DNA from: Colwellia sp.
GTDB lineage: Bacteria > Pseudomonadota > Gammaproteobacteria > Enterobacterales > Alteromonadaceae
Length of the DNA stretch: 34,892 nucleotides
NCBI GenBank assembly: GCA_022969215.1
Contig: JALJPA010000020.1
Span: 1-34,892, forward strand
Direction of reading: 5' to 3'
The notes beneath the pieces are model-generated. The model was not told the DNA's origin and ran no database searches. It saw only the letters and a program-made list of their open reading frames with translations. The translations under genes were made by a program, and so were the position numbers. Positions 5,688 through 31,778 of this stretch are shown here, one piece after another. Every line of letters begins with the position of its first letter. Position 1 is the first letter of the stretch.

Positions 5688-5696
5688 ATTTGAGCA

Positions 5697-5770
5697 ATAT
5701 CCAATTGTTAATAATTTATGCTAAATATGATATCAGAAAGAGTAGGCTATATCCGCTTTTCTTAGGACAG
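5697..5770 (+). repeat. R0: left-type attachment-like repeat, recombinase 5' remnant
   Basis: Bases 5727-5765 read ATG and encode MISERVGYIRFS followed by a TAG stop. The intact recombinase at 19241 starts MISETVGYIRFSS, so only one residue differs before the stop. DNA identity to R2 continues upstream through an AATAATTTA block and downstream to GGACAG at 5765-5770, then ends abruptly. It lies immediately upstream of yffB and marks the left edge of the island. Confidence 0.75.
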
Positions 5771-5980
5771 AAAACAGCTGTGAAACTTACAATATAATAG
5801 CCCTAAGCCAATATACATTTTCCTAGGGAAATTAGTAATCAAGCTGTGCAATAGTTAAAAACTAGACTAAGCTTATAAATCCGTACCCAATCAAGCGTGA
5901 AACATTGTAACAGCTTGAGCTTTCTTAATTTTCTGGTAACCATCCTTTTTGATTCAGTGAGTTGATTATTATCAATGTAA

Positions 5981-6373
5981 TTATTTATCTGTCTTGAGGT
6001 CAGAGGGAATAAGGCGTATTGCTTTACCCGATAAAATGCTTTCTTGTCCTGCGGGTTCGCCATCAAATCCTTGAGCAATACCGGTATTAGATGATGTTAA
6101 AATAATCGCATGTGCACCAATGCTCGCGGCTTCCTTCTTTAATGCAGTCATAGCCCTATCTTTACTTTTATTTTTTGTAAAACCCACACCGTTTGAATCG
6201 ACTAAAGCGATGACTATAAATTCTTGCTCTGGTGTATCTAATAAAATCGTAATGTCGGCAACTTGAGTAGCAGCATATACCTTACCCGACGTTGTATGTG
6301 ATGCATCAGATAGTGAACATGCTGTTAACATTGTAATTAACCATAATGAAGGTATTATTTTTAATTTATTCAT
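5981..6373 (-). CDS. Putative lipoprotein of unknown function
   Basis: A 130-residue protein with a lipoprotein signal: positively charged start, hydrophobic core (IIPSLWLITML) and lipobox LTAC|S at about residues 16-20. The mature part has a strand-helix-strand pattern with a conserved-looking SIGAHAIIL segment near residue 90. This resembles small periplasmic RcsF/YbjQ-like folds, but that is only a pattern impression. It is divergent from the AraC-type pseudogene and lies just inside the left boundary of the island. No ribosome site stronger than AAGGGAAA is seen upstream of the start. Function unknown. Confidence 0.65.
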   Translation of the reverse strand: MNKLKIIPSLWLITMLTACSLSDASHTTSGKVYAATQVADITILLDTPEQEFIVIALVDSNGVGFTKNKSKDRAMTALKKEAASIGAHAIILTSSNTGIAQGFDGEPAGQESILSGKAIRLIPSDLKTDK

Positions 6374-6552
6374 ATTTTCCCTTTTAAAATGTCAAATTGA
6401 AATATTTTCAAATTCAATTTATTTTGTTAAAAATCAATGTTGCTCTCAAAAGCATTCCTATGCTCTTGAATAAGATTTGTTGATTGAATTGCCATAAATA
6501 AACTGATTTAATTAGCCAAGAATATAATGTAACAAAAATATAACAAATTGGA

Positions 6553-7530
6553 TTGTTAAAATATATGCATATTCCGCAAGCCTCAAAATTAATTCGACGT
6601 TTAAACACAATAAACTTAAAAAAGTTAACAGACTTTCAACTAAATAAAAATAGACAATATACCCAACTAGAATCTGGAAAATTAAATGCGCAGTATATTG
6701 AAGTGAATTTAGGTGATATGCAGTTATTTATAGAAAGTCTGAATGTTGGCGCTAGAATAGAGGCCGCACCTGCTAAGCATTACCTACCTTTTGCCTATAT
6801 TTATCCTCGTATCAGTGAACATCGATTTTGTGGGCAAGAGCATAATAATAACTCATTGATTCAAGCAAGTGGCGGGCTTTGAGATGTTTGCTCAAAAGGT
6901 CGTTTAGATTACATATGCACTGCATTTAACAGGAAATACTTTTATAACGCTTATAACATACTAATAGGACAAGAAATTCCATCGCAGTTTTTAATTAGCC
7001 AAACAGTACAAACATCGAATCAAGCGTTATCGCGTTATGTAGTAGCAATGGATTTTATTTTAGAGAAAATACAACTGTACCCTATGATTTTGGATCATAA
7101 GAATATAATTAGTTTAATTTACTCACTGTTACTTAAGCTTACCATTGATGCATTATTACCAACTTTTAACAACTATAGTTCGTTAAAGCCCCAGCCGAAA
7201 AGAATGACGGGTACTAAACGTGTCATTGAATATCTACAAATGCATGCCGTACAATAACCTGATATGGCAGTATTATGTAAGGTGGCGGATTTAAGTGAGC
7301 GTTCTTTAGAATATGGTTTTCAAGAATATTTAGGTATTACGCCAATTCAATATTTAAGAGTTTTACGACTTAATGGCGCTAGATTGGATTTTTTAAGTAA
7401 TATTAATAGCAGAACTAAAGTATCTGACATTGCTTTGACGTGGGGCTTTTTAGAGTTTGGCCGCTTTGCCAATAATTATCGTCAATTATTTCAAGAACGG
7501 CCTTCTGTAACGCTAAAAACGATGATGTAA
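6553..7530 (+). pseudogene. AraC-family regulator interrupted by two in-frame stops
   Basis: One frame of 326 codons stays open from 6553 to 7530 apart from TGA at 6880-6882 and TAA at 7255-7257. The N-terminal third (QYTQLESGKLNAQYIEV) fits the sensing domain of AraC-type activators. The C-terminal 90 residues are a clear double helix-turn-helix domain: VADLSERSLEYGFQEYLGIT, then DIALTWGFLEFGRFANNYRQ and a final PSVTLK. The absence of indels shows that both lesions are point mutations and that decay is recent; TGA after GGL may replace a Trp codon and TAA a Gln codon. The C-terminal part starting at ATG 7264 could still give an isolated DNA-binding domain. It is divergent from the lipoprotein gene and may once have regulated it. 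Confidence 0.8.
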
Positions 7531-7885
7531 TCGGTGTTTGAATAACAAAGAATACGGCTGAAAAGAGCATAATTCATTTTTGTTGAAAATATTACCATCC
7601 ATCAATTTCTGTTAATGAATTATTCCAATCTGCCCCAAACAGCTATAGAGCCATTAAATTTTTATTGTACAAAAAATCATGTAAAACGATATTAACCGAA
7701 TGTCCAATTTTGGTGTTTTTAATCAAATTTTAATTTTTATTTTTCAAGCCATAAATTGAATTTTTGAACTCGCTCTTTATATAATGCAGGGCAGCTTTGT
7801 CGGATCAGTTGCCGTTATAAAAGCAAAGAATAACGTCTATTTTCGTATCTAAGTGGTCATTATATTGGAAAGTTTTGAACAATAA
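7531..7885. other. Non-coding AT-rich stretch
   Basis: No plausible gene, terminator or repeat was seen between the AraC pseudogene and the coding remnant that follows. It is poor in GC and full of short T and A runs. Confidence 0.5.
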
Positions 7886-8041
7886 ATTAAGACCGCTTTG
7901 TGGCTTGAGTTCAACCGATGGACGCAACACGAAAATACTCAGTATCGTTTATTGCCTGTTACTTACAGCTTAGGCAATGCATTACCAAACCAACCATTGC
8001 TTATTTACGGGGCAGTGGCTAATGAATATTTAATCATATGA
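7886..8041 (+). pseudogene. Possible 3' fragment of a lost gene
   Basis: Fifty codons follow an in-frame stop and end at TGA 8039-8041. They read as normal-looking protein (for example NRWTQHENTQYRLLPVTYSL) without a start codon in a sensible place. Composition is unlike the non-coding DNA before it. I cannot name the family. It converges on the end of the neighbouring regulator gene, 28 bp away. It could be chance. Confidence 0.3.
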
Positions 8042-8069
8042 ATACCGCCTTTACCTTATTCGTTATTTT

Positions 8070-10283
8070 TTAATGCATGGTGCGATGTACATCGCCTTCA
8101 AGGCTTTCTAAGTCACTTAACATTATCTTGGCGTTACTAACGTCATAGCCATAAAAATCATTTAAAAGAAATTGACTACCTTTTTCTATATTATTTATCG
8201 GCACGGCATTTAAATAAATACTGTCGCTTTCATCGCTACCATAATACAAAGTATTGGCGTCTATTTTTACGTGGAAAAAACCAGTGGGTAGGGTTACTTG
8301 AGTTTTAGTAAATTCACCTTGGTTACTGACTGAATCATCAGTAAATGTTAGTGAATTGGTACGATATAAAATATTACTTTGTTGTTCAATTAAATAGTTA
8401 TATTGCGGATGTTGGCTATCTGTCAGTCCATAAGCCCACTTACCTTTGAGCTGTTGTACTTTATTATTAAACAAATTGACGACCATTAATTCAGGTATAC
8501 CATTATTAACGGTAGTAATTGCCACACCATTTTTTGTCAGCCAATTAAGTGAGATAATAGGGTGCTCGCTGGTAAAAATTAGGTTTTCTTGTTTGAGAGT
8601 TGTTAACGGATTCACCTCATTTAAAGCGCTTATAGGCAAAAGATAAACCTCATTATCTACATTTAATAATACACTTTGGTCATCGGCTGACACAGTCATA
8701 TAGCTTAACCAATAAGACTGAGAAAAATTAGTCACTATTTCGGCTTGATTGGCGTCATAATGCCCCAAATATAATTGTCTACGGCCACTTCGTTTTGAAA
8801 TAAACAAATACTGTGAGCTGTGATGAAATAACGCAGGGTTAATATCGTCAACCGTTGAGTTATCAATGTCGCTAATTTGTTTTGGTGGTACTAACCAACG
8901 GTTACTATAATTTTTCTGCTCGGTACTGAACAATATATTTTTGCCATCAGGAAATAATGACATGTGTGGCGATAAATATTCAGAGATACTGACAACCGTA
9001 GTAGCGTTGCTACCATTTAAGTCGCTTTTAATAATTTGATGGGCAGGCGGCGGCGCATAATAATAGACTTGTTCAGAGTCATGATGCCAAATAGCTTCAG
9101 AAACAGGGTAATCAAACTTAAAACCCTCTGTTATTTCGTTATTAAGTAAATTTAATACCAGTAGTTGGGTTTTGAAGTCGCCCTTAGTACTCATGATTAA
9201 TAGTTTATTGCCATCTGGGGAAATATCAATACTGTGGTGCCCCCAGCCTACAGGCTCAACTTGTGTTACAAAGCTATGTTTTTTAGTGGCTACGTTAAAG
9301 GCATATATTTGGTTTGGCCAAAGGTTTCTCGGCTGTGCAGCGTAATAAATCATATTTTTACTGATATGATAATCAATATCCTTTATCCGTTTATCACTGC
9401 AATCAAACAACTTTTCAGCTTGTTGCCATTGCATTGTTTTATTAGTTTGCCTTAGCTGTTTCTTATTATTTATTTGTCTAAGAGTAGCTTGATAAACACC
9501 ACAACTGTCTTGCTTTTTATCAAGGTAAAACAAATGGGTAGTATCACTACTTACCCCGGTAACTGCCCCTGGAACTACGGCGATAATTTTACTAATGTTG
9601 GTTTCAGCTATATTTACTTGCTTAGTTTTTGCCGTATGAATGTTTTTTATCCACAGTTGATAACTTGTATTTTCTGAATCCTTTTTTAACTTCTTTTTTA
9701 AATAATAAAGGTGGTTATTATCGGGATGCATACGTGCTGACTCTTCTGCGCCATGTGCACGGGTTAACTCCATGGTATAACGATTTGTATTGTCTTTATT
9801 ATCCTTACTACTAAATACTTGCCATAAAAACAAGCTACAAAGCAGTAATAACAGGGCGATTATTACTTTGCTGTACCCCTTATTTGGTAAGTTTTTTTTG
9901 AGGCTATTTTTGCGGTTATTAGTATCACTTATGCCATCAGTTATGATCTGGCCTTTTTCAGCCAAATTTAAGCTTTCAAGCAAGTTCACTTCACATATCA
10001 GTCGATAACCTCGTTTAGGCACCGTTTGAATATAACGAGGATTTTTAGGTTCGTCAGCCAGCACTTTACGCAAGTTGGCAACCAGTTTATTGATGGCATT
10101 ATCGGTAACCAGTGAACCTGCCCATAAATTATCTAAAATATCTTGCCGAGAAATAATTGTATTTGGCTGATTAACAAACATTAATAACAGTTCAAATAAC
10201 TTAGGCTCTATCGCAACGTCTTTGTCTTGAAATATTAGCCGTGCTTGTTTGTCATCAAGAGTAAACTCACCAAATTGCATCAT
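8070..10283 (-). CDS. CadC-like membrane regulator with TolB/PD40 sensor domain
   Basis: A 737-residue one-component membrane regulator. Residues 1-97 are an OmpR/CadC-type winged helix (FGEFTLD..., IISRQDILDNLW, DNAINKLVANLRKVL, YIQTVPKRGYRL). A linker precedes one membrane helix at about 139-156 (KVIIALLLLLCSLFLWQVF). The remainder is periplasmic and contains TolB/PD40-type beta-propeller repeats (DISPDGNKLLIMS, LFPDGKNILFS). Such proteins bind DNA from the inner membrane and sense a periplasmic signal. It is divergent from a secreted esterase gene across a 251-bp intergenic region, the likely target. A paralogous regulator/esterase pair occurs at 12418-15825. The signal is unknown. Confidence 0.85.
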   Translation of the reverse strand: MMQFGEFTLDDKQARLIFQDKDVAIEPKLFELLLMFVNQPNTIISRQDILDNLWAGSLVTDNAINKLVANLRKVLADEPKNPRYIQTVPKRGYRLICEVNLLESLNLAEKGQIITDGISDTNNRKNSLKKNLPNKGYSKVIIALLLLLCSLFLWQVFSSKDNKDNTNRYTMELTRAHGAEESARMHPDNNHLYYLKKKLKKDSENTSYQLWIKNIHTAKTKQVNIAETNISKIIAVVPGAVTGVSSDTTHLFYLDKKQDSCGVYQATLRQINNKKQLRQTNKTMQWQQAEKLFDCSDKRIKDIDYHISKNMIYYAAQPRNLWPNQIYAFNVATKKHSFVTQVEPVGWGHHSIDISPDGNKLLIMSTKGDFKTQLLVLNLLNNEITEGFKFDYPVSEAIWHHDSEQVYYYAPPPAHQIIKSDLNGSNATTVVSISEYLSPHMSLFPDGKNILFSTEQKNYSNRWLVPPKQISDIDNSTVDDINPALFHHSSQYLFISKRSGRRQLYLGHYDANQAEIVTNFSQSYWLSYMTVSADDQSVLLNVDNEVYLLPISALNEVNPLTTLKQENLIFTSEHPIISLNWLTKNGVAITTVNNGIPELMVVNLFNNKVQQLKGKWAYGLTDSQHPQYNYLIEQQSNILYRTNSLTFTDDSVSNQGEFTKTQVTLPTGFFHVKIDANTLYYGSDESDSIYLNAVPINNIEKGSQFLLNDFYGYDVSNAKIMLSDLESLEGDVHRTMH

Positions 10284-10534
10284 AACGAATTGTTTTCTCT
10301 TGAAATAAAAATAGCACTAACGATAAATCAGTTTATCACGCAACTAATCAGATACAAAAGCCAGTTAAATGAATAAACCGGCGGTTCGTTCAAAAAAAAC
10401 ACTAAAGCGACCACATTCACCTTTTAATCACCTTTTTTCCTACATTCGTCATTACATTAGCGCTAAAAAATATAACAGTAACTCAATACCAATAACCAAA
10501 AACAAAAAACAAAACCAACTTAAAGGATTACTTT

Positions 10535-11785
10535 ATGTTTAAACATCTAATAACAATTTTTATCATTACTCTGCTTACTAATATCAGTACTGCCTATGCC
10601 AATGTGCGGGGAGAGTCGAAGGTTGACCGCCTGTCATCTAAAATATTAACTGAGGAACGTGAGTTAATAGTACACCTGCCAAATAACTATCAGCAAAATA
10701 CAGCGCTAAATTATCCCGTTCTTTATTTATTAGATGGTCAAAGAAATTTCGCTCATGCCGCTGGTACCTTAGACTTGCTAATTCAATCTCATATGGCGCA
10801 AGAAATGATTATTATTGCCATTAAAAATACCCATCGTACGAGAGATTTAACGCCAACGTATGATGAAAGTTATAACGAATGGGGTATTTCTGGTGGTGCT
10901 GATAACTTTCTAGATTTTATCGAACAAGAGCTGATCCCCTATGTGGATACAAATTATCGTACCAACAACTTTAAAATATTGTCGGGTCATTCTCTTGGCG
11001 GGTTATTGGTTGTTTATGCCTTGCAAACAAGACCACAGCTGTTTCAAGCTCACTTTGCCTTCAGCCCAAGCTTATGGTGGCATGAACAAGTGATATTTAA
11101 AGAAGCTGAACATTTTTTTGCTAATAAAGCTGAGTTGAATAACTATTTATATCTAAATTTGGGCAATGAAAGTGGCGATATGTTAAGTGCTTTTGAGCGA
11201 TACAACAAGTTGCTGAAAATACATACACCTAAAGGCTTTAGTTATAATTCAGACATAGATGAACAAGAGAACCATGGCACTAGTGCGCTTATAGGGCAAA
11301 CCCTCGCATACCGATATTTACACGCATCATTGCAATGCCCTAAAGAGGTCATTGCCCAAGGTTTGCCTGTTATTGAGCAATTCTTCAAAATGCAGTCTGA
11401 AAAATATGGCTACCAAATAAAGCCGAGTTTCACTGCAATTAATCACGCTGGCTATATAGCTTTAGAGAATAAAGACATTGCTAAGGCAATAAAAATATTT
11501 GAAGGCAATGTAAAAAACTATTCATATAAAGCCGATGGTTATGACAGTTTAGCCGATGGACTTGTAGCAGACGGTCAACTTAATAAGGCACTACAAATGA
11601 GGAATATAACCATTACAAAAAGCTTGAGCGAAAATATTGAAAACAATTCTTATAAAACTCGTCGAACCAATTTATTAGCCTTAATTAAGGAAACAAATGC
11701 AAAGACCTCGGGACTGTGTTTGAGGAAAAATATACCCATAGTGTTGAACAATAAATGCAATGTAATTCCCTTGCCATCAACTTAA
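10535..11785 (+). CDS. Secreted esterase (PF00756 esterase D-like) with C-terminal extension
   Basis: A 416-residue protein with a Sec signal peptide (about 1-22, cleavage near AYA|N). The alpha/beta-hydrolase domain covers about 30-265: PVLYLLDGQ, nucleophile elbow GHSLGG with Ser153, SPSLWW oxyanion-side segment, and catalytic His247 in ENHGTS. This is the esterase D/IroE-like family, which includes siderophore esterases and carbohydrate esterases. Residues about 300-370 look helical and TPR-like (NHAGYIALENKDIAKAIKIF). AAAGGA at 10522-10527 supports the start. It is divergent from the CadC-like regulator at 8070-10283, which I infer controls it. Substrate not predictable from sequence. Confidence 0.85.
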   Translation: MFKHLITIFIITLLTNISTAYANVRGESKVDRLSSKILTEERELIVHLPNNYQQNTALNYPVLYLLDGQRNFAHAAGTLDLLIQSHMAQEMIIIAIKNTHRTRDLTPTYDESYNEWGISGGADNFLDFIEQELIPYVDTNYRTNNFKILSGHSLGGLLVVYALQTRPQLFQAHFAFSPSLWWHEQVIFKEAEHFFANKAELNNYLYLNLGNESGDMLSAFERYNKLLKIHTPKGFSYNSDIDEQENHGTSALIGQTLAYRYLHASLQCPKEVIAQGLPVIEQFFKMQSEKYGYQIKPSFTAINHAGYIALENKDIAKAIKIFEGNVKNYSYKADGYDSLADGLVADGQLNKALQMRNITITKSLSENIENNSYKTRRTNLLALIKETNAKTSGLCLRKNIPIVLNNKCNVIPLPST

Positions 11786-11877
11786 ATAAACTGGGCAAGT
11801 TAGAGATTGTAAAGCCTGTTGCTAGCACAGTGATCGTTAGATGTAGTGAGTTCTATTAAAAGTAATGACCGATATTG

Positions 11878-12060
11878 CTCAAAGTTAACGTTCAATAATC
11901 GAATATGAGTGACAGCTTTGAGCATAAACCTGCCGTTACGGACGTAAGCTCTAATGTCCGCCAAGCTAACAGTTTTATCGGGTTTGTATGCGCATAACTA
12001 TTATTCTTAAAGCTTGGGTTTGTTAAGGGGTAATAGCAGCGATAGAACTAAATACTCTTT
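11878..12060. repeat. Diverged intergenic repeat block, copy 1
   Basis: Shares ordered blocks with 18936-19142: CAAAGTTAACGT, TTACGGACGTAAG followed by TCTAATGTC, and GGGGTAATAGCAG. A 9-bp inverted pair TGCTCAAAG/CTTTGAGCA lies near 11877-11930. Each copy directly precedes an attachment-like repeat (R1 or R2). The stretch from 11786 to 11877 holds nothing recognisable. Confidence 0.6.
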
Positions 12061-12203
12061 GCGGCACTAGTATAAAAAATACTCGCAATTATTTACTCCA
12101 TAAAGGGTGACCATAGTTAGGGAGTATCCAAACATCTAATCATTAAGGCTTAAGATGATATCTGAAACCGATAGGCTATATCCGCTTTTATTCGGCTAGG
12201 TGA
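12061..12203 (+). repeat. R1: right-type attachment-like repeat, recombinase 5' remnant
   Basis: Aligns almost end to end with R3 (31637-31778), beginning at CGGCA and TATAAAAAA and ending at CGGCTAGGTGA. The block ATGATATCTGAAACCGATAGG from 12155 matches the recombinase start at 19241 with a one-base insertion that shifts the frame. The shifted frame would read IGYIRFYSAR and stop. No recombinase sequence follows. From 12204 to 12417 nothing is recognisable. Confidence 0.75.
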
Positions 12204-12417
12204 GTGCTAAAACGGCAGTAAGCAGCTATTAAATTCGATCTGTTTTAGCTGGGGTAGAAAATCTAATATAGACCGATTCAATAGGGTGCGATTTAGGTAT
12301 ACTCATCGCAGACCGGCTTAATCTGTGCTTTGTCTGTAAACGGACCTTAGTCAATACAAATTACATGAGTCAAATATACAAGAATCAGTCACCAGTATCT
12401 AAATCACTTTAGTTTTT

Positions 12418-14667
12418 TCAATTCCTTAACGTGAGTTCAGCCACTTCTTTTTTAGCGGTAATACGTAGTGTCAGTAGAATGTCAGACTGATTAATATCGG
12501 TTAATGAATCAACGTTGTTAGGTATATTACCTAAGGTCTCAAATCTATCCTCGTTAAGATCATAAGACCACAATTGAAATTCCTCATTAATGCCATAAAT
12601 GACATTGTTTTTTATTATGAAGCGTTTGTCGCTTCCTTGGCTTGCTAGTGATTCAATCAGTTGGTCTTCGGCGGGACCTGGCTGCCAAAAACGGTCCAAT
12701 TGATCGGTGTAAATTAATCGACCATCTTCACTTTTTAGCGCCCAGTTTACTTTCTTGTCGGTTATTACCCTAAACGCTGAGTTATGCAGATTGAACTCGC
12801 CAAACTTTAAAACTCCTTTGATACGTACAAGTAATAAAGCGGTATTGTCTTCACTATCCCAATGAAAAAGTTGTTCAATACGGTGGTCGAATGGAAATGA
12901 TTTTTGGCTTGAATCTAGGCTCGCCTGAGTGAGCCTATTATTAACATTGACCAAAATACTTTGTCCATCAGCGGCCCAATTCATACCATTAATAGAAGAA
13001 TCCATCGTGAAATTGGAGAGTTGCTGTGCGCCGTTGCCATCAGTTATCCAAATTTGATTATCGCCAAAGCGAGTTGACTTAAAAGCGATTAACTCACCCT
13101 TAGGTTGGTAAATGGCGTTGTCTTCTTCCAGTGTTGAGCGTTCCAGTATTGTCGGGACAGGATTTGACGGGGCAGGGTTTGAGTCACTGTTATTTGCCCT
13201 AGTTAGCGATTGGTTCGCTTGAGTCTGGGTTAATTGTGCTTTGGCTGATTGTGACTTAGTTATTTGTGATAGGGACATCGTCGCGATATCACTATCCCAA
13301 TTTCCCTTAATCACCAGCGCTCGTTTACCGTCTGGATGAAATATCGGCGAACCCATTGGTTCATCAAGTGGCAGACTAATATTGGTTATCTTGCCATCAT
13401 AAGAGAGGGTAAAGAGTTGTCTGCCAGTGCTAAAAATAAGCAGTTCACTTTTTGGCGTGAAGTTTGGATAGATATTTCTAAAGTTTGCTATTTCTGGCGG
13501 GTATTCAATCTGATGACTGGATAAAACCTGGCCATCTGGTTTTAGTATTTCAATGTAGTGCTGGCCATCATTGTGAATACTGGTTAACGCGATAAGATCG
13601 TCGGTGACGGAATAGTCATAGTCAACGAAGTTACCGTCTTCCAGTTCGTATATGACCGTACTTTTGTTGTCCGCTATCGAATAGCTGGTTAACTTCCAAC
13701 GATTAGAAAACTCCTGCAATAAAGCGATATTATTATTATTGAGCCATGTAGCCTTGGCTATTCTTGAGTTTTTACACTCCATTAGTAAATTTGGAGATCG
13801 AGGTGCTGCAAGTGCTTTTTCAAAATCCAAGGTCATTAGTTTATAACAATCCTTCTGAGTCATTGGTTTGTTGCAGTTTTCAGTTTTAATAAATACCAGT
13901 TTCTTGCCGTCTTTTGAGAAACTGTGGCTACCATAGCGACCCATGTTTTTAGTGAGTTGGGTTTCTTTTTGTGTTTTGATATTTTTTGCCCAGATATTGC
14001 TACTAGTACAGAGCTCTTGTGAATAGCGGTTAAAAACTATGTATTCACCGTCAGGCGAATAAATACCCGAATGTTCTTTGTTGTCAGTGGCTGTTAATGA
14101 ACGCAACTCGCCAAAGGATAATTTTAATGATTGCGTTGGTGTTAGGTAGCTAAAACCGATAATAGCCAAAATAACAATACCAACAACAGCAATGATCTGT
14201 TTAAAAAAAGACCTTGGAGGCTGAGCTTTATCAGTTGCATCAGTTTCGGTACTAACATTGGTCTTGCTGACTTCATTTTCTGGTGAACTATCAGCTATTG
14301 CTAGGTCTCTTCCTGTTTCTGCTACTGTTTCTGGTTTAGCTTGTGTTTCATCATGCCATTTAACATCACACTCCAGGCTATATCCCTGTTTAGCATGGGT
14401 CTTAATATAGGATTGCTGGCTAGTGTCTTGACCCAATACTTTTCTTAATTGGGCGATACTTCTTTGTAATGTATTAGGCGTAACAATCGTGTCGGGCCAC
14501 ACTTTAGCAAACAATTCATCGTAGCTAACCACTCGGCCCTGATTTTCAGCCAGATAGGTTAAAACAGCTAAAGCTTTAGGAGCAATAGTTTGTGATTGCT
14601 CTTTTTGAGTGACTTGATTCCTAGATAAATCAACAAAGAAATCACCGACCCAATATTGTACTGCCAT
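12418..14667 (-). CDS. CadC-like membrane regulator with TolB/PD40 sensor domain (paralogue)
   Basis: A 749-residue relative of the regulator at 8070-10283 with the same plan. The winged helix spans about 3-102 (YWVGDFFVDLSRNQVT, VVSYDELFAKVWPDTIV, TLQRSIAQLRKVLG, YIKTHAKQGYSLEC). A Glu/Thr-rich linker follows, then a membrane helix at about 157-174 (IIAVVGIVILAIIGFSYL). The periplasmic part has PD40 repeats (GIYSPDGEYIVFNRY, SFSKDGKKLVFIK, IFHPDGKRALVI). It is divergent from the esterase at 14959, and the run of cargo genes to 18873 is probably under its control. Its start is ATG with little choice nearby. Signal unknown. Confidence 0.85.
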   Translation of the reverse strand: MAVQYWVGDFFVDLSRNQVTQKEQSQTIAPKALAVLTYLAENQGRVVSYDELFAKVWPDTIVTPNTLQRSIAQLRKVLGQDTSQQSYIKTHAKQGYSLECDVKWHDETQAKPETVAETGRDLAIADSSPENEVSKTNVSTETDATDKAQPPRSFFKQIIAVVGIVILAIIGFSYLTPTQSLKLSFGELRSLTATDNKEHSGIYSPDGEYIVFNRYSQELCTSSNIWAKNIKTQKETQLTKNMGRYGSHSFSKDGKKLVFIKTENCNKPMTQKDCYKLMTLDFEKALAAPRSPNLLMECKNSRIAKATWLNNNNIALLQEFSNRWKLTSYSIADNKSTVIYELEDGNFVDYDYSVTDDLIALTSIHNDGQHYIEILKPDGQVLSSHQIEYPPEIANFRNIYPNFTPKSELLIFSTGRQLFTLSYDGKITNISLPLDEPMGSPIFHPDGKRALVIKGNWDSDIATMSLSQITKSQSAKAQLTQTQANQSLTRANNSDSNPAPSNPVPTILERSTLEEDNAIYQPKGELIAFKSTRFGDNQIWITDGNGAQQLSNFTMDSSINGMNWAADGQSILVNVNNRLTQASLDSSQKSFPFDHRIEQLFHWDSEDNTALLLVRIKGVLKFGEFNLHNSAFRVITDKKVNWALKSEDGRLIYTDQLDRFWQPGPAEDQLIESLASQGSDKRFIIKNNVIYGINEEFQLWSYDLNEDRFETLGNIPNNVDSLTDINQSDILLTLRITAKKEVAELTLRN

Positions 14668-14958
14668 ATAAACGCTTACCAGAATGAAAGTTGTTACTCA
14701 AAAGTGAGTCTACACGAGAAGGCTTATCCTAGCATAAACCAAAATCGCAGTTAACATACTTTGTATCTATTTGATTATAAAGGTAAATTATAAAGTCAGG
14801 GAGAAGTCAGCGAAAATTCAGTAGCACGTCAGGTATTTTAGTTTCAAATCATTTAAATTCAGCTCATGCCAAGGTTGTAAAGAACAACCTTTTGAAAAAC
14901 CGTTATTTTAAAGAACGAATTTTAAATGCAACAGAGTAAAAAATAAGTGGATAAATTA

Positions 14959-15825: not shown

Positions 15826-15828
15826 ACA

Positions 15829-18011: not shown

Positions 18012-18021
18012 GGGAAAAGTC

Positions 18022-21195: not shown

Positions 21196-21375
21196 ATGAG
21201 AGACTATTCAGAATTAATAGTAGTAGACCTATTTGAGAGAGTTAAGGGACTAGATTATAGAGGTAGTAATTTTGCTACTCGAATTAAAGATCTAAAGAGA
21301 CTGGCAGAGGTACTTGGTATATCACAACAGAGAACAATGAGTAACATACAACCAGTGGGGGGAGGTAGCGAATGA
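21196..21375 (+). CDS. Small protein coupled to the replication gene (59 aa)
   Basis: A 59-codon frame starting at ATG 21196 with AGGAG at 21182-21186 in good position. Its stop codon overlaps the start of the next gene (ATGA at 21372-21375), so the two are translationally coupled. The protein opens MRDYSELIVVDLFERVKGL and carries a helical, Arg/Lys-rich middle (RIKDLKRLAEVLGISQQRTM) that could be a short helix-turn-helix. I recognise no family. By position it may control or assist the primase-helicase, as small copy-control proteins do in plasmids; that role is inference. Confidence 0.65.
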   Translation: MRDYSELIVVDLFERVKGLDYRGSNFATRIKDLKRLAEVLGISQQRTMSNIQPVGGGSE

Positions 21376-25004: not shown

Positions 25005-25061
25005 TACGCAAAGTACGCAGAATGATGTATTTATATTAACCAGATATGTCTTTTTGCGTAC
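24995..25061. repeat. Iteron-like AGTACG repeats at the end of the replication gene
   Basis: AGTACG occurs at 24995, 25003 and 25012 (spacing 8 and 9 bp), the last two extended to AGTACGCA. An inverted copy TGCGTAC is at 25055-25061. They overlap the stop codon of the replication gene and may be its binding sites or a transcription stop structure. Confidence 0.4.
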
Positions 25062-25171
25062 CTTTACAGTTAAATACCCCTAAGCAAGTAACACTAAAGA
25101 ACGAGCTAAAACTCACACAGGCTAATACCAAAAACCCATTTGGGGATATTTTAGAAAAAGCTAAGGGCTAA
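25046..25171 (+). CDS. Possible 41-residue protein
   Basis: A frame from ATG 25046 to TAA 25169-25171 encoding MSFCVPLQLNTPKQ and ending DILEKAKG. It reads like an ordinary soluble peptide, but no ribosome binding site is visible and no family is recognised. It overlaps the inverted iteron-like repeat. It could be chance or the end of a decayed gene. Confidence 0.25.
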   Translation: MSFCVPLQLNTPKQVTLKNELKLTQANTKNPFGDILEKAKG

Positions 25172-25795
25172 CTAAACCTTACAAGGGCTGATTTCAAAAA
25201 CACGTTCTAACCTGAAAAAACCATACGAATATATGTTAATTAATTGATATAACAATAACTTAAGTTTAAAAGGAACAATTAATAAAACACATTTCGGCTA
25301 AAAGCAACTAAGCGCGGGTTCAGCATGGAAAGTCGATTACCCCAGATATCCCCCCCCATTAAATACAATAATAGTCTTCTGGTTAACAACGAGTTTAGCT
25401 TATACATACAAATAGACTCAAACACTATCTTTATAAGTACCATAAATTAAATCTGTTCAGGGAGTCGGTTCATACCACAAATAAGACCAAATATTGAGCT
25501 GAGATAATTCTAAAATAGATGCGCGATCGAAAAATAAGCAGTCATAAATACTTGAAACACTTTGTCCACATAGCTGACGTTAATCAAAAAATACTTTCTA
25601 ACGATGACTTCGCCATATTTATAGTCATTTATATGTATCTATGTATTTTAAGTACCTGTTTTGTAGTAAGCTGATTTTATTAAGAATAAGTGAGTTTACT
25701 AAACCATAAGTAGATGAATTAAACGTAGCTTATGTATTTTGTATGAAAGCAAAATAGTTATAGTACTGAGATAATGTATTAAGAGGTTAATTTAG
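25172..25795. other. Non-coding gap between replication and RES genes
   Basis: No plausible gene in either direction. A run of eight C (near 25350) is the only unusual composition in an AT-rich stretch. It could contain the element's replication origin because it directly follows the replication gene, but I see no convincing DnaA boxes or iteron arrays. Confidence 0.35.
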
Positions 25796-26824
25796 ATGAT
25801 TATAGATGAAGAAAAGGTTTTAGAAGAGCACGGTGTTATGTTTGAAGATAACTTTATTTCAGATCTAGATTCATGGTTTTCAGCAGATATAGCATGTTGC
25901 AATGGTTGCTATGATGGATTTGTTACATTCTGGCCATTGGCTAACGATGTTGAGTTTGAGCGTTCTCTAATCGGGATTCAGTCTTTTTATGATGGTTCTA
26001 AAAGGTGCAAAAAAATTTATACCAATGAAGAATTTGATATATTGATATCTTCGGTAGAATGTCCACATTGTGATGAGTCACTTTCTAGTAGTAGTACTAT
26101 TTGGCTCTATGAGTTACCGTTTAAGTATGATGTAAATGTGACAGATTTTGAATCTCATATTTATGATTTAGTCAGAATATCTGAGACTACTCCATTTCTA
26201 CTATTAACAAACCAATTTGCTTCGAACATATGTGAAATACTTAAAAAGTTGTCTTTAAAAACATTAGCTGAAAAAATAGAACACCCACTATATAGAGCTA
26301 GAGTTGCAACTCAAATAGATCAATTAAGTTTTGACCAATTTACTTTACCACCTAACCGTTTTATACAAGAAGGTCGCTATAATCATGCAGGTCAACAAGC
26401 TCTGTATTTAGCTAGTGATCAACAAACCTGTTTCCAGGAAGTTGGTAGTGTTCTATGTTATGTTGCTGAGTGTGAGATTAATGATAAAATAAAGATATTA
26501 GATCTTTGTAATCCAAACGATTCTCATCCTGATTTTGCTATTGAGTTATGGGCTTTAGCATATTCAGCTTTAATGAGTAGAGTGTTAGATACAGAAGGTT
26601 ATCACAAGCCATGTTATGTTTTTTCTCGGTTCATTACTGATTGTGCTAGGTTGGCGGGCTTTGATGCTATCAAATACCCGTCTACTAAGGTTACCGACAA
26701 TAATTTCAACTTAGTAATATTAAACAATGAAATAGCAAAGGAAAGTCTAAAGTTTAATTCGTTAACATTAAAAGATAACAATCAAAATTATCCAATTAGT
26801 ATAGCTACATCATCTGTAACTTAA
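25796..26824 (+). CDS. RES-domain protein, predicted NAD+-consuming toxin or effector
   Basis: A 342-residue protein. The C-terminal part (about 164-315) has the RES pattern: PLYRAR (166-169), GRYNHAGQQALYLASD (193-208), an E in FQEVG (Glu215) and a Ser in AIKYPSTK (296). Characterised RES toxins phosphorolyse or hydrolyse NAD+ and are held by an Xre-type antitoxin. The N-terminal part (1-125) has two cysteine pairs, CCNGCY (34-38) and CPHC (89-92), likely a zinc-binding domain as found in long RES proteins. No antitoxin gene lies next to it: the nearest genes are over 350 bp away and do not look like Xre. I infer a defence-type effector rather than a classical toxin-antitoxin pair. Confidence 0.75.
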   Translation: MIIDEEKVLEEHGVMFEDNFISDLDSWFSADIACCNGCYDGFVTFWPLANDVEFERSLIGIQSFYDGSKRCKKIYTNEEFDILISSVECPHCDESLSSSSTIWLYELPFKYDVNVTDFESHIYDLVRISETTPFLLLTNQFASNICEILKKLSLKTLAEKIEHPLYRARVATQIDQLSFDQFTLPPNRFIQEGRYNHAGQQALYLASDQQTCFQEVGSVLCYVAECEINDKIKILDLCNPNDSHPDFAIELWALAYSALMSRVLDTEGYHKPCYVFSRFITDCARLAGFDAIKYPSTKVTDNNFNLVILNNEIAKESLKFNSLTLKDNNQNYPISIATSSVT

Positions 26825-27156
26825 ATGGATAAAAAAATAGATAGCTATTATTAAGCAGTTTGAACGCTCGTTAACTATGGATAATCTAAGTACGTTTAAC
26901 CTGTCATGACTAGTATTGATCCAACAACGGAAGTTTGGTTTTAATCACCATTCCCCCCGCACTTTGCGCACCAAAAAGTCATTAATGGTGAACTATTTTT
27001 AACTATTATAGATAGTTGAGTGAGTTGGATTAGTTTTTTGTATCGATAACCCCGAAAGAATGGGCTTAAAATTGTTTGCTAAAATGTTGGTGAACGAAAC
27101 ATAAAAAATGTTTAAGTCCTATTTATTTGCTTGTCATGTACTTTATGGCACACTAT
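26825..27156. other. Non-coding stretch after the RES gene
   Basis: No plausible gene. Short dyads such as ACTATT near 26992 do not form a convincing terminator. The stretch leads into the promoter at 27157. Confidence 0.4.
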
Positions 27157-27185
27157 TTGCCAGCTTTATGATTCAGTGATATAAT
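27157..27185 (+). promoter_or_regulatory. Strong sigma-70-type promoter pointing into the inverted-repeat segment
   Basis: TTGCCA at 27157-27162 and TATAAT at 27180-27185 are separated by 17 bp, close to the ideal. Transcription should begin near 27192, only a few bases before ATG 27199, and run through the left inverted repeat and the hairpin at 27249. Confidence 0.65.
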
Positions 27186-27198
27186 GGAAGGTATCATC

Positions 27199-27246
27199 AT
27201 GATTGATGTAGCAAAGAAGAGCTTTTGGAAGAGTTTTTATAATTAA
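27199..27246 (+). CDS. Possible 15-residue peptide, aromatic-rich
   Basis: ATG 27199 is preceded by GGAAGG (27186-27191) with a 7-nt gap, and encodes MIDVAKKSFWKSFYN before TAA. A second in-frame ATG at 27184 would give 20 residues. The promoter at 27157 would start the transcript after the GGAAGG, so that site is used only by a longer message; otherwise the peptide would be nearly leaderless. Phe, Trp, Phe and Tyr codons in a row of eight, followed at once by a strong hairpin, recall a leader peptide. The left 16-bp inverted repeat lies inside it. Whether it is translated is uncertain. Confidence 0.3.
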   Translation: MIDVAKKSFWKSFYN

Positions 27247-27248
27247 GC

Positions 27249-27278
27249 GAACAACAATAGTTCGAGCTATTGTTGTTC
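27249..27278. terminator. Perfect 12-bp hairpin without T-tract
   Basis: Arms GAACAACAATAG (27249-27260) and CTATTGTTGTTC (27267-27278) around a 6-nt loop. Three bases separate it from the peptide stop codon. It lacks a T run, so it may be an attenuator, an RNA stability element or a protein-binding palindrome rather than a terminator. Confidence 0.45.
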
Positions 27279-27416
27279 ATAGTAATCTGTTGATACAGAT
27301 ATAACACCAAAAAGGGATAGGTGATACTTAATAAGAAGGGTAATGTACCGTAAAGTTCATTGCTTGTAAAGCCTAAACCTTAGTAAATCTATACTGAGGT
27401 AAACAATATCTATAAC

Positions 27417-27614
27417 ATGAACACCCCTACAGCTTTTGTACTAATAGCTGGATTCCTATGTGTGACATTCTTAGTAGTTTTCATGCTAAATACCGTAAAC
27501 ATTCATACCTTACCTAAAGAAAGATTAAAACCTTACCAAGAATCTTTAGAGGTTATACATAAGGGTATGCCCGAAACAAAATTAGATATAAAAATGGAGA
27601 TTGATATGAAGTAA
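27417..27614 (+). CDS. Possible small single-pass membrane protein (65 aa)
   Basis: A 65-residue frame with one long hydrophobic helix (FVLIAGFLCVTFLVVFML, about 7-24) and a charged, Lys/Glu-rich tail. It lies wholly inside the segment bounded by the 16-bp inverted repeats and downstream of the promoter at 27157. The ribosome site is weak. No family recognised; small hydrophobic proteins of this layout include toxins and phage-related membrane proteins, but nothing here decides. Confidence 0.4.
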   Translation: MNTPTAFVLIAGFLCVTFLVVFMLNTVNIHTLPKERLKPYQESLEVIHKGMPETKLDIKMEIDMK

Positions 27615-27806
27615 AAATAATGCCTAAAACCCTAAGGTAACTCTCTTAGGTAAAACTCTTCCAAAAGTTTTAATTACCCATTCAGATTGATAGCCTAATT
27701 ATAGGTTTATTCAGACTGAAAAGACTATAAAGCGCACTAACTTGACAGTTCTGATAGTCCCCATCATTTTTATGATCTAATGCTGTCTAACCCAAGCTTT
27801 TACACC

Positions 27807-27917
27807 TCAATAGGACACAATTACATTCTGTCTGATAGGGAAGTCAATAAAAGTACGCTTATTTTCTGTTTGTTACTTTCAATAGGACACAATGTAAGTA
27901 TAATAAACTTATGTCCT
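27807..27917 (+). promoter_or_regulatory. Repeated operator-like sites in the tyrosine recombinase promoter
   Basis: TCAATAGGACACAAT occurs at 27807-27821 and again at 27879-27893. The second copy lies between a weak -35 (TTTCAA 27877) and TATAAT at 27899-27904. An inverted core TGTCCT follows at 27912-27917, pairing with AGGACA at 27885-27890 around the -10. The layout suggests a repressor or the recombinase binding its own promoter. Confidence 0.5.
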
Positions 27918-27936
27918 AAAGATTACCAAGAAGATT

Positions 27937-28494
27937 ATGAACGAAGTTAACGCAGTTACGAACAAAGCACAGTTAGAAATGATCCCAGTATTATTAGAAA
28001 AGCACTACGGGCAACAATCTGCTGATATATGGAGCTTTGGCGTTCAGGTAGCTTTAAGAATCTCAGACTTATTGAGTATCGAAATGACTGACATTGCTGG
28101 CGATATCCTAAAGATTACGGAAAGTAAAACGGGTAAAGTTCAAGACATTAAGCTTAATTTTAAAGCTATGGAAATACTTAACCGTGTTAAAACAGATTAC
28201 CCTAACAGCGTTTACTTGTTCCAATCACGTACCAGTAACAGAGTTAAGGGCAAGGTTAAGGCATTAGGACGTAGTACTATTAGCGCCAGCTTTAAAGCCA
28301 TAGGTGAAATGATAGGTTTAGCCATTGGCACTCATTCAATGAGAAAGACTCGCGGCTACCATGTATACCAAGCAACGAAAGATATCGCTTTCGTTATGCA
28401 CATGCTAAACCATAGCAGTGCAGCAGTTACCTTGAGATACATAGGCATTACGCGAGAAGACCAGCACCAAAGCTACCTAGATATAGTGTTATAG
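27937..28494 (+). CDS. Small tyrosine recombinase (catalytic domain only)
   Basis: A 185-residue site-specific recombinase. The catalytic set is present: Arg in ALRISDLL, Lys in ESKTGK, His-x-x-Arg in THSMRKTRG, His in MLNHSSAAVT and the nucleophile Tyr in LRYIGI. The N-terminal core-binding domain of most integrases (about 100 residues or more) is missing, as in the FimB/FimE group of about 200 residues. That group flips short DNA segments between inverted repeats; a pair of 16-bp inverted repeats lies just upstream. A second role could be resolution of element dimers. Repeated sites overlap its promoter. It is not the C-terminal fragment of a longer frame: a stop-rich region precedes the ATG. 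Confidence 0.85.
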   Translation: MNEVNAVTNKAQLEMIPVLLEKHYGQQSADIWSFGVQVALRISDLLSIEMTDIAGDILKITESKTGKVQDIKLNFKAMEILNRVKTDYPNSVYLFQSRTSNRVKGKVKALGRSTISASFKAIGEMIGLAIGTHSMRKTRGYHVYQATKDIAFVMHMLNHSSAAVTLRYIGITREDQHQSYLDIVL

Positions 28495-28662
28495 ATAGTC
28501 GTGATGCAGTACTAGGTCTTTAAACATTAGCCTCTACAGAATTTACACTCAATGAAAGAACTATTACCACTACTATTCTTATTAGCTTCTTATTAGTATT
28601 AAAACGCTTACCTTTGGCCAAGAAAAAACTAGGTTGAAGAGTATCTATAAAATCCAACCTGA

Positions 28663-28752
28663 GTCATTCTATTGTGGTTAAGTGAACGGACTAAAGAGTC
28701 ACTAGCTAAAAAGAAAGCAACGGGCTTTAAGTTAAGTAGACCAGAAGTATAG
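28663..28752 (+). pseudogene. Remnant of a small serine resolvase/invertase
   Basis: After a stop at 28660-28662 the frame reads LSERTKESLAKKKATGFKLS then RP and ends at TAG 28750-28752. This matches the stretch after the catalytic domain in small plasmid-type resolvases (SERTKEALAxKKAxGVKLGRP). No catalytic domain survives upstream. It shows that a further recombinase once lay between the tyrosine recombinase and the defence genes. Confidence 0.5.
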
Positions 28753-29213
28753 CAACTCGCGAAACGGTACAACCGCATAAAACTCAGGGCTTAAGCCTAG
28801 ATAAAGTCGTGAAAGCTACATGCTGATCTTTATCAAGTGTAAAACATCACTGGAAGTTATAGCGCTTATTGAATTGGCAAGCTTTAGTGATTCTCCTCAC
28901 TATTTGTGAATAAGATTATTTCATTCAGAATATTATCTATATTCATAATTATCGATAAAACTTCTAAACTTTAGTGCAATGTTACTATGGATCAATATTT
29001 ACTTTTTTCTATGAGTATAGTATTTCAAAGCTATCATAACTTCTTGGTGGAGAGAGCTTTTCTCTTAATAAATCAATTAGATAATTAAGATATTTTATCG
29101 AGTAAATGATAGGCTTTAGTTTATGTAAATAACTCGGCTGTTGGGTAAAATAAATGGAACGGTCAGAGGGAAATATTGGAGCAGTGAACCTTAAGGGTTT
29201 AAAAAACGATTAT
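28753..29213. other. Non-coding region before the PARIS-like genes
   Basis: AT-rich and without a plausible gene; it should contain the promoter of the defence operon, but no clear -35/-10 pair stands out. AGGAAG at 29214-29219 is the ribosome site that favours ATG 29228 over the GTG at 29219. Confidence 0.4.
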
Positions 29214-29227
29214 AGGAAGTGATGATT

Positions 29228-30643
29228 ATGGAAGCATATCTTAAAAGGGCGGTTATTACAGGCTTATTCTCAGGGAGTAGGAGTTTAGATGTTTCATTTG
29301 AGCAAGGTGTTAACTGTATTCATGGCGTTAACGGTTCAGGAAAAACTGTCTTTATCAATCTCCTCATGGGAGCTCTAGGATGCCAAAAAGAATACCTAGG
29401 GAAAGTGAGATTTCAGTCTATTGATATTTATATACAAAAATCGGGAAACCAAAGGGCTTCGAAATTATTTTCAGTAATAGCTCATGGTGAAAAAGTGGTC
29501 AAGTATGTATTTCATCAGAAAATGACTCCTTCATTGATACATAGAGTTTCAGGGGGCCTTTCGGGCTATAGGTTCACTGGACATGAGCCTGTTAAAAAAG
29601 GCGACATAATAGCGATTGATTTGTCTGATGATGATATGTTTGATATAGATGTAGAAAGAATAAGGAGTTTAATAAACTCAACATTTGCTACAACCTATGT
29701 ACCGTTATTAAGGGGAGTTAATTCTAGAGTTAACAGGTTCTATGAGGACAATGATGATAATGACCCATATGTTGCTATGCTTGACCACCTTCAGGAAACG
29801 TTTTCAAGGCGCTATGGTAGTGCCCTTTCAATAGTTAATAAGGGTCTGGAAAAGCTTAAGTCAAAGATTTTTGAAAAACTAATGTTTGATGATACAACTG
29901 ATTCCTCCGTTTCTAGTGAGATAAATGCTGTATCTGAAATAATTCGTACTGGTAAAGTCATTGAAGTAAGTGCAATGGATGAGGCTCTTCTTCTAGAAGA
30001 TATAAAAAATTCAGATTTGCCAATATCAACAGCACAATTAGAGAGGCATTTTGAAATATGGGCGGGAATACAGAATAGGGTAATAAAAGCAAACCATGAG
30101 TACCTGAGGTTAGAGGAAGAGTTTGGTGAGAAATCAGGAGAAGTAATAAAGTCTAGAAATGAGTATACAGAAGCATACTTTAAGTGTTTAAGCTCGGTTA
30201 AGTTTTATAAAAGGTTTTCAGAAGCGGTAGATGAGATAAGAAGTGTTCAAAAAGATAAAAATAAAGAGTTAGCTCCGTTTAGAAAGTTTGTCGAACAGAT
30301 GAATGAATTTTTATCGTTGGGTAAAACATTCTCACTTACCGCTTCTGGAGCTTTTCAGGTGAGGTTTGATGGTGAATATTTAAGGTTTGAAGATTTATCC
30401 TCAGGTGAAAAACATATATTAGCCATATTGGCTAGAGTTTGCTTATCGGCATTTAGTAAAAGTACGCTGTTTGTTGCGGATGAACCAGAGCTGAGTCTGC
30501 ATTTAGAGTGGCAACGAATGATTATCCCTTCAATCAAAACGGTATCACCAAACATGCAAGTGGTGGTCGCTACTCACTCGCCCTCAGTTATACCCGATGA
30601 TGCGAATATGATTAATATCTTGGAGTGTTACGGATATGAGTAA
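29228..30643 (+). CDS. ariA: PARIS-like AriA: AAA/ABC-type ATPase
   Basis: About 471 residues from ATG 29228 (AGGAAG lies 8 nt upstream; a GTG at 29219 is also in frame). Walker A is GVNGSGKT (33-40), the ABC-type signature is LSSGEKH (390-396), and Walker B with the switch region is LFVADEPELSLH (Asp418, Glu419), followed by VVVATHSPSVI. The middle is helical and charged. This is the OLD/RecF-like ATPase form with no nuclease domain of its own. The next gene, overlapping by 8 bp, is a DUF4435 TOPRIM-type protein; that pairing defines PARIS, where AriA senses phage anti-restriction proteins and releases AriB. The gene symbol is by analogy. Confidence 0.75.
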   Translation: MEAYLKRAVITGLFSGSRSLDVSFEQGVNCIHGVNGSGKTVFINLLMGALGCQKEYLGKVRFQSIDIYIQKSGNQRASKLFSVIAHGEKVVKYVFHQKMTPSLIHRVSGGLSGYRFTGHEPVKKGDIIAIDLSDDDMFDIDVERIRSLINSTFATTYVPLLRGVNSRVNRFYEDNDDNDPYVAMLDHLQETFSRRYGSALSIVNKGLEKLKSKIFEKLMFDDTTDSSVSSEINAVSEIIRTGKVIEVSAMDEALLLEDIKNSDLPISTAQLERHFEIWAGIQNRVIKANHEYLRLEEEFGEKSGEVIKSRNEYTEAYFKCLSSVKFYKRFSEAVDEIRSVQKDKNKELAPFRKFVEQMNEFLSLGKTFSLTASGAFQVRFDGEYLRFEDLSSGEKHILAILARVCLSAFSKSTLFVADEPELSLHLEWQRMIIPSIKTVSPNMQVVVATHSPSVIPDDANMINILECYGYE

Positions 30644-31475
30644 TACTCCATCTTATACTTCGAATGAAATATTTAGGGCCGCAGAAATGGACTCAGTGGG
30701 AAAATATATCATTGTGGAAGGAGAAACAGATAAACCAGTTTTTAGTGAGTTAATAAGAATGAAGCAAGCTTTCGATGGAATAAGTGAGCGAATAATCATA
30801 GGTGCAGGGGGCGGAAAACCGAACATACTATCTTGGTTAGAATCAAAGAGAGCGGTTAATATTAAAGTTGTTCTAGACAGAGACTTTGATGATTTACAAG
30901 TAGAGTTAACAGACCGCAGGATAATCTCATTAGATGTATATTCTATAGAGAATTATTATTTTTCAAGTGAAGTCATAGCACCATTATTCGCCCACTTAAC
31001 TCAATCAACCATTGAAGAAGTAGAAAGGTGGATGAACTTAGAATCGATGACTATAAATTGGTCGGGTAATTTGGAGGAGTTGTTGGCTACTTTGTACTAT
31101 TATCAAAAGCAATATGGCGGTGAGAAAAGTGGATGGGGGGATAGGGATATAATTAAAAACCGTGATAACTGGGAGGTTTGTCCTCGAAAAGTTCAAAAAT
31201 TGACTAATGATTTACTTGAACAGATGGAGGGGGTTGAGTTGGTTACATGTGTAGACTTTTTTAATTTGCAATTTCCTTACATTGAATGCCTCTCAAAGTC
31301 TTTTCCCGGAAAATTACTTAAAAAGTCATTGTATAGGTATTTAAAGTTACATTGTGAACAGAGTGGTGGAGAATTTACGAGTATTACAAATACGGAGCAG
31401 TTAATGCAGTCTCTTACACCTAGGTTGATGTGTAGTAGCCAAGTGCAAGGTGTATTAAGAAGACTAGTTGCCTGA
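30636..31475 (+). CDS. ariB: PARIS-like AriB: DUF4435 TOPRIM-type effector
   Basis: A 279-residue protein with DUF4435 landmarks: KYIIVEGETDKPVFSEL (acidic residues Glu28, Glu30, Asp32), VVLDRDFDDL (Asp81, Asp83, Asp85, Asp86) and VYSIENYYFS (104-109). These form the acidic TOPRIM-like metal site. In E. coli PARIS the released AriB is a nuclease that cuts host tRNA and stops phage growth; the same is inferred. Its start overlaps the end of the ATPase gene, so translation is coupled. It lies 160 bp before the right-hand repeat R3, the usual cargo position at an element end. Other DUF4435/ATPase pairs exist, so subtype is uncertain. Confidence 0.75.
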   Translation: MSNTPSYTSNEIFRAAEMDSVGKYIIVEGETDKPVFSELIRMKQAFDGISERIIIGAGGGKPNILSWLESKRAVNIKVVLDRDFDDLQVELTDRRIISLDVYSIENYYFSSEVIAPLFAHLTQSTIEEVERWMNLESMTINWSGNLEELLATLYYYQKQYGGEKSGWGDRDIIKNRDNWEVCPRKVQKLTNDLLEQMEGVELVTCVDFFNLQFPYIECLSKSFPGKLLKKSLYRYLKLHCEQSGGEFTSITNTEQLMQSLTPRLMCSSQVQGVLRRLVA

Positions 31476-31636
31476 CCTGTGAATACAAAAAGTTATGAAG
31501 GGACTAGTCATATTTATTGTCCCTGAATGCTCCCTCCTTTCTAGAAATTAGTATACCCCTTGTTCTGTATCATATTCTATAGGTCTTTGGATTGTTTACT
31601 ATTAGGTTGAAAGTTATAAAACGCCATTTTAATTAA
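31476..31636. other. Spacer between defence genes and right-end repeat
   Basis: Contains a weak hairpin AGGGAC/GTCCCT (31499-31524) without a T run that may end the defence transcript, and an imperfect palindrome around 31620-31644. No gene. Confidence 0.35.
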
Positions 31637-31778
31637 ACGGCATTACTATAAAAAACTGCTCACAATTTTTTATACCATAAAGGGTGAACATCGTTAGGGA
31701 TTATCCAAACATCTAATAACTAAGGCTTCTGATAATATCAGGAACGATAGGTTACATCCGCTTTGTTCGGCTAGGTGA
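31637..31778 (+). repeat. R3: right-type attachment-like repeat, recombinase 5' remnant
   Basis: Matches R1 over about 142 bp, from ACGGCATTAC through CCATAAAGGGTGAACAT and TATCCAAACATCTAAT to CGGCTAGGTGA. The position of the recombinase start codon is ATA (31732) rather than ATG. Homology stops just after GGTGA. It is the right edge of the island. Confidence 0.75.

Follow-up and report, generated by a model that had tools for sequence, protein, structure and literature searches.

Repeated insertion at codon 11 of arsC in Colwellia: a probable stack of integrative units with a large serine recombinase

Results

Four repeats mark a single point in arsC

We analyzed a 34,892-nucleotide stretch of Colwellia sp. 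DNA (the window), which is one 34.9-kb contig of a genome of 5.04 Mb in 434 contigs. Toward its left end lies arsC (5337 to 5687, minus strand, start codon at 5685 to 5687), encoding a 116-amino-acid protein of the Spx/ArsC family (Pfam ArsC, E value of 7.7e-19). From the start of this gene onward, the window carries four direct repeats in the same orientation, R0 to R3. An earlier note had described these repeats, and we found them real, in the places and orientation that it gave, with the flanks that it quoted present in the sequence. Most likely, at least three mobile islands have been set end to end at one point of arsC by a serine recombinase.

The repeats join the first 10 codons of arsC, read from codon 10 back to codon 1, to the opening ~12 to 15 codons of a gene for a large serine recombinase (LSR), with a spacer in between that measures 39 bp in R0. 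We call a copy that holds the arsC start, the spacer, and the LSR-start stretch a leader, and we denote the arms of the predicted element site (attP) as P and P′ and those of the arsC site (attB) as B and B′. On the left, each repeat is limited by the dinucleotide TC in arsC codon 11, at 5656 (R0), 12083 (R1), 19163 (R2), and 31660 (R3). R0 (5656 to 5770, plus strand) is the start of arsC itself and abuts the gene; codons 10 to 1 and the spacer are followed by a relic of LSR codons 1 to 12 (ATG at 5727). R1 (12061 to 12203, plus strand) and R3 (31637 to 31778, plus strand) each have a P arm, the TC (12083 to 12084 and 31660 to 31661), a displaced, readable arsC start (MVTLYGVNNC in R1 and MFTLYGIKNC in R3), the spacer, and the core common to the copies. 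R2 (19140 to 19285, plus strand) differs in that an arsC-like arm replaces the readable arsC start: it runs from a P arm through the TC (19163 to 19164) and the P′ arm to the LSR start codon at 19241, and its stretch after the spacer is the start of the 508-amino-acid LSR. A fragment of the target gene, either the arsC start or the arsC-like arm, stands at the boundaries R1, R2, and R3. Measured from TC to TC, the segments span 6427, 7080, and 12497 bp, which matches the 6.4, 7.1, and 12.5 kb of the earlier note; we refer to these as units E1, E2, and E3, followed by a remnant, E4. Profile E values were 1.4e-28 (R0), 3.7e-30 (R1), 8e-25 (R2), and 2.3e-27 (R3), all biased because the four copies sat in the profile seed. 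As an unbiased check, a copy from genome G222 was used as a plain DNA query and gave identities of 91% (R1), 84% (R3), 89% (R2, partial), and 79% (R0).

The LSR (19241 to 20767, plus strand) has the Resolvase (PF00239), Recombinase (PF07508), and zinc-ribbon (PF13408) domains. Residues Y8, R10, S12, Q16, E80, D83, R84, S86, R87, R134, and E138 are invariant in a five-sequence alignment. It is full length, with catalytic, recombinase, and zinc-ribbon domains present, in E3 only and is the one LSR found among the annotated open reading frames (ORFs) of at least 70 amino acids scanned in the window, so the earlier description of three cargo segments, two of them without a recombinase, holds.

Comparisons place the probable crossover at codon 11

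The earlier note took the core of the repeats as the attachment core. We instead place the likely crossover further left, at the TC in arsC codon 11, 71 to 78 bp left of the LSR start codon. Identities were measured region by region between 13 leader-bearing loci. Between G314 and G379, identity jumps at codon 11, from 59% in arsC codons 12 to 116 to 91% in codons 1 to 11; between G222 and G247, it is 85% in the first region and 94, 90, 100, and 100% in regions further right. At the far end of the G247 locus, the usual right-end sequence of an element is followed by a native-type arsC start, as in leader-less genomes, and then by the ACT-domain gene, with the caveat that the join lacks ~30 bp and that the two ends were assembled on separate contigs.

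An element at arsC in G689, from another family of the order, resembles E3. Its LSR is 39% identical to that of E3 and divergent from arsC, with 39 bp between the start codons, as in R0. Also present is a displaced arsC start (LTLYGIKNC), which ends at codon 11 at a distance of 8564 bp, and the junction has no core. Between E3 and G689, 20 of 23 positions match in the P′ arms and 14 of 23 in the P arms. Unlike the window, G689 has a single 8.6-kb element, and neither stacking nor a unit lacking an LSR was seen. When the G689 LSR was used as a query against 369 genomes of the class (E ≤ 1e-60), the matches were the window's own LSR and one in G996, with no others. At the level of sequence, comparison between loci establishes the codon-11 boundary, the stacking, the shared ends, and the link between an LSR and arsC in a second family.

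To examine the predicted sites, each attP was compared with its own reverse complement, using the TC as the center, 23-bp arms, and 20,000 shuffles. The predicted attP of E3 is an imperfect palindrome (15/23, shuffle P of 5e-5) whose central TC lies 78 bp away from the start of the LSR; E2 and G689 each gave 16/23, reached in 0 of 20,000 shuffles. With 18-bp arms, the TC was the best scanned center in three of four units. With a crossover at codon 11, R0 is B.B′ (uninterrupted arsC), R1 and R3 are P.B′, and R2 is P.P′. Of the note's two classes of attachment site, the right-type pair, R1 with R3, agrees with these assignments as a grouping, and the left-type pair, R0 with R2, does not.

Leaders adjoin arsC in part of the genus

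Our genus sample comprised 39 Colwellia genomes. A leader was present in 13 of them at E ≤ 3.2e-14; a looser cutoff (E ≤ 0.1) gave 21 genomes, 8 of them with only the arsC start or short pieces. All 13 have a leader copy at arsC, and a named contig (L077) adds one further arsC-adjacent copy. The core also occurs on eight named contigs, all of them from Colwellia, and one exact degenerate pattern of the core found no copy in viral contigs. Colwellia piezophila ATCC BAA-637 and Colwellia sp. 75C3 are among the named records that carry the leader. As assembled, extra copies outside arsC arrays lie on contig C19 of G339 (one) and contig C251 of G399 (two). In Colwellia piezophila (G339:C19, L059 13768 to 16342), a second copy of a repeat accompanies the GGDEF gene and part of an ACT gene, with no arsC found in 4000 to 51766.

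Cargo adjoins the leader in 12 of the 13 genomes. The earlier note had named repeats occurring without an insertion as the case that would speak against it; the one leader genome of that kind is G314, which has no cargo and also lacks the ACT gene. We located arsC in 25 of the 26 leader-less genomes; 23 of these loci are free of cargo, and contig edges cut off the other 2 (G038 and G397). At the 23 cargo-less loci, arsC lies beside the ACT gene in 14, pta lies within 0.6 kb in 8, and G364 makes up the remaining 1. Relatives that lack some or all of the segments exist, and the note's proposal of repeated insertion at one site is supported.

Relatives of the recombinase

Across the genus, the LSR search (E ≤ 1e-10) gave 14 matches in 11 of the 39 genomes. 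The best besides the window's own was 39% identical and came from leader-less G369, on the contig of arsC but beyond its 3′ side; this LSR (L010) lies beside a GcvR-like ORF 4 to 5 kb from arsC. Apart from the window's own, none of these genus matches lies upstream of arsC. ORFs beside the related LSRs at L006, L007, L008, and L106 look like what we take to be ComM/YifB, so this group of LSRs seems to use several target genes. No close relative was confirmed in a search of genome contigs, a phmmer search of PDB gave no match, and relatives in 31 plasmid and 25 phage records were all under 60% identity.

A relic of the recombinase start is probably constrained as DNA

LSR codons 1 to 12 are recognizable in 14 arsC-adjacent leaders (the 13 genomes and L077). 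At third codon positions of this relic, the mean majority was 0.86 and 6 of 12 positions were invariant, compared to 0.69 and 11% for arsC of the same loci. The start codon is lost in 3 of the 14 leaders, and codon 11 is a stop in 2. Third positions that are conserved despite lost starts and new stops point to constraint on the DNA and not on the protein. In pairwise comparisons, the spacer (50 to 95% identity) is less conserved than the core (68 to 100%).

Since ~39 bp alone separates the two start codons, a promoter of arsC would have to overlap the LSR start. Probably, LSR-less units keep the first ~12 to 15 LSR codons because the arsC promoter would overlap that stretch. An extended −10-like motif, TGrTATyAT, occurs on the arsC strand in 14 of 14 arsC-adjacent leaders and in 3 of 5 displaced copies; as an arsC promoter element, it is suggestive only. 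A consensus promoter scan of R0 gave no support, as the arsC-strand site (10/12) overlaps the arsC start codon and two sites were found versus a shuffled mean of 1.3. A further-reaching idea is one we entertain tentatively, and would sooner doubt than adopt: the first codons of the LSR would themselves be the promoter of the host target gene, so that LSR-less units would have to keep the relic or silence arsC, and selection on host expression would preserve it. As part of this idea, LSR-less units would restore an attB-like arsC start (B.TC.B′) and leave the landing site open to more stacking, which the LSR element (B.TC.P′) would not.

Units and cargo

E1 (5656 to 12084, plus strand; 6.4 kb) has no LSR and carries a CadC-like regulator (8070 to 10283, minus strand) and a putative esterase (10535 to 11785, plus strand). 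E2 (12083 to 19164, plus strand; 7.1 kb), also without an LSR, is a parallel module of a CadC-like regulator and a putative esterase and adds PD40 proteins and a serine hydrolase of the beta-lactamase fold family. The LSR carrier E3 (19163 to 31661, plus strand; 12.5 kb) contains a 1,210-amino-acid protein without a Pfam match, a RES-domain protein, a short tyrosine recombinase, and a PARIS-like pair (29219 to 31475, plus strand) made up of an AriA-like ATPase (29219 to 30643; PADLOC E value of 1.3e-28) and an AriB-like DUF4435 protein (30636 to 31475; 1.1e-11). By eye, the frames behind the tyrosine recombinase, at 28500 to 28900, hold a broken resolvase-like C terminus. Compared by eye, the right ends of E1, E2, and the G222, G247, and G339 elements have ~95 bp in common, and in E3 the likeness is limited to the last ~26 bp. 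Judged by eye, the stretch at 7800 to 7920, inside E1, looks like the sequence near the right end of the G222 element and is perhaps the trace of a further old unit.

E4 (31660 to 33797, plus strand), presumably the oldest remnant, holds a GGDEF gene (32360 to 33625) and lies directly at arsC in G402 and G323. Between the window and G339, this gene is 93.5% identical and arsC 81%, which suggests a recent transfer of E4. Beyond it lies the ACT-domain gene (33798 to 34180, minus strand), the arsC neighbor in empty genomes; it is intact in G222 and split over two frames in the window. The contig end cuts a ~245-bp repeat (34644 to 34892) without an Rfam match, of which many copies at 83 to 98% identity occur in genus genomes among the matches listed. 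Nine of 10 scanned cargo proteins of relatives have a Pfam family. Cargo at this hot spot is varied and strain specific, including TonB receptors, a tryptophan halogenase, LysR/LysE, a sensor kinase, BlaR1-like genes, and the PARIS-like defense pair.

Discussion

With good confidence, we read the region as a stack of site-specific integrative units in arsC codon 11, formed as an LSR recombined attP with arsC and repetition left R0 to R3. An LSR of the E3 type would recombine the attP of a circular element (P.TC.P′) with arsC (B.TC.B′). Insertion would sever arsC from its own first codons and promoter; the gene would receive a replacement start from the left end of the element, together with a divergent promoter, and its old start would end up at the far end. 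Repeated insertion would yield R0 to R3, one marking each unit. Such ends, with no LSR at hand, also belong to E1, E2, and the units of 12 other Colwellia genomes; these units may have been moved in trans by a helper LSR, have lost their own, or have spread via homologous recombination.

Several observations weigh against this reading. The window's LSR occurs in just 1 of the 13 leader genomes, and among eight LSR relatives whose surroundings were examined, only that of G689 adjoins arsC. No right end was found within the examined stretch in seven leader genomes (G314, G135, G374, G379, G398, G332, and G399, the last with a contig break). The attP palindrome is weak in the G222 element (11/23, P of 0.016) and absent in E1 (9/23, P of 0.16), and native arsC is not palindromic around the TC (3 to 6 of 18 in five genomes). 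In all 14 LSR-less units, the left arm is B′-like (15 to 23 of 23 positions versus the native consensus and 5 to 10 of 23 versus the E3 P′ arm), so their circles would be P.B′. As P.P′, R2 requires a pairing other than attP with attB, and PMC3783163 describes serine integrases as not recombining such pairings.

Several features also suggest exchange inside the core, in line with the earlier note. In its version, recombination within the core ATATCCGCTTTT would exchange the first LSR codons at each insertion. Leaders that are near identical up to the core run into unrelated sequence right after it; arsC-adjacent leaders of one type (the window, G222, G399, G402, G247, G339, and the more diverged G323) lead into several unrelated tails, and the displaced copies (R1, R3, G222 R′, and G339:C19) form a different type. 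The leader type of E4 in G402 and G323, which resemble empty sites for such an exchange, differs from that in the window, G222, and G339. On G399:C251 (L056, around 2355), only the right half of the core is present, joined to unrelated sequence resembling the end of a reverse-strand gene. The mixed E4 leader types and this half core argue that core exchange, by homologous recombination or by the recombinase, occurred too. As the route of insertion, however, we think it unlikely: it does not account for the jump in identity at codon 11, for the native-type arsC start found displaced in G247, or for the core-less junction in G689, and a palindrome scan of eight core copies gave no common center (best centers of 8 to 10 of 18 at offsets 40, 24, 42, 23, 23, 18, 18, and 11), though three agree at 23 to 24.

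Less likely again is a stack built by homologous recombination or transformation via the common ends and flanking arsC, with the LSR a passenger of E3 that acted at arsC for E3 only. That 12 of 13 leader genomes lack such an LSR, that LSR-less units have B′-like left arms, and that leader and tail combinations are shuffled would all fit. However, the P arm at the TC is kept in the right ends of E1, E2, E3, G222, and G339, of which that of E3 is otherwise unlike the rest by eye, and the joined ends of E2 are as palindromic as those of G689. The 185-amino-acid tyrosine recombinase of E3 (27937 to 28494) has a Phage_integrase domain (E value of 1.4e-17), but we give it hardly any chance of being the integrase: it lies inside E3, away from both ends, no relative was found in the loci compared, and in E3 and G689 it is the LSR that occupies the attachment site.

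Insertion by an LSR at arsC would make this system a new family of a known kind, judged from sequence comparisons; by target or recombinase, it belongs to none of the described systems. As passages of PMC3146451 describe, Dehalococcoides ssrA islands (DsiB) likewise form tandem arrays at one gene with a target-gene fragment repeated at each boundary, have a serine recombinase (CcrB-like there) near the left edge, and include islands without an integration module (15 of 31). There, however, integration is into the 3′ part of the gene for tmRNA and the module has two recombinases, whereas here it is into the arsC 5′ end and one LSR was found. No tRNA or tmRNA gene that could serve as a target lies in the window, and Rfam gave no match to a known RNA family at gathering score. 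Passages of PMC6222049 on the Enterococcus cassette chromosome describe islands that have serine recombinases and variable cargo, a joined att site with inverted repeats, and multiple att sites in a composite island, all as here, but with another target and a CcrA/CcrB pair. No ccrA/ccrB pair was found here, given the one LSR in the scanned window ORFs, and no search was made for an rlmH target. The staphylococcal cassette chromosome shares the same likenesses and differences.

In passages of PMC4482086, islands enter the protein gene dusA at its 5′ end and bring a new one that has a putative promoter, and the units here likewise insert where a protein gene begins, in this case arsC; unlike here, dusA-family integrases act there, and those passages do not include stacking or a recombinase relic. 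In the window, the target is arsC and not dusA. The dusA-family integrases are of the tyrosine type. No report of LSR integration in arsC was among the literature matches listed, one set of which lacks the term arsC and another the term yffB, and passages of PMC7542103 on Colwellia islands do not mention "recombinase."

The unusual feature is that LSR-less units keep the first codons of the LSR, and novelty would lie in a possible promoter role of this relic. Taken together, these comparisons name arsC codon 11 as an integration hot spot and provide a directly testable LSR together with its predicted attP and attB. In these Colwellia genomes, the relic of an integrase may serve the host as a promoter.

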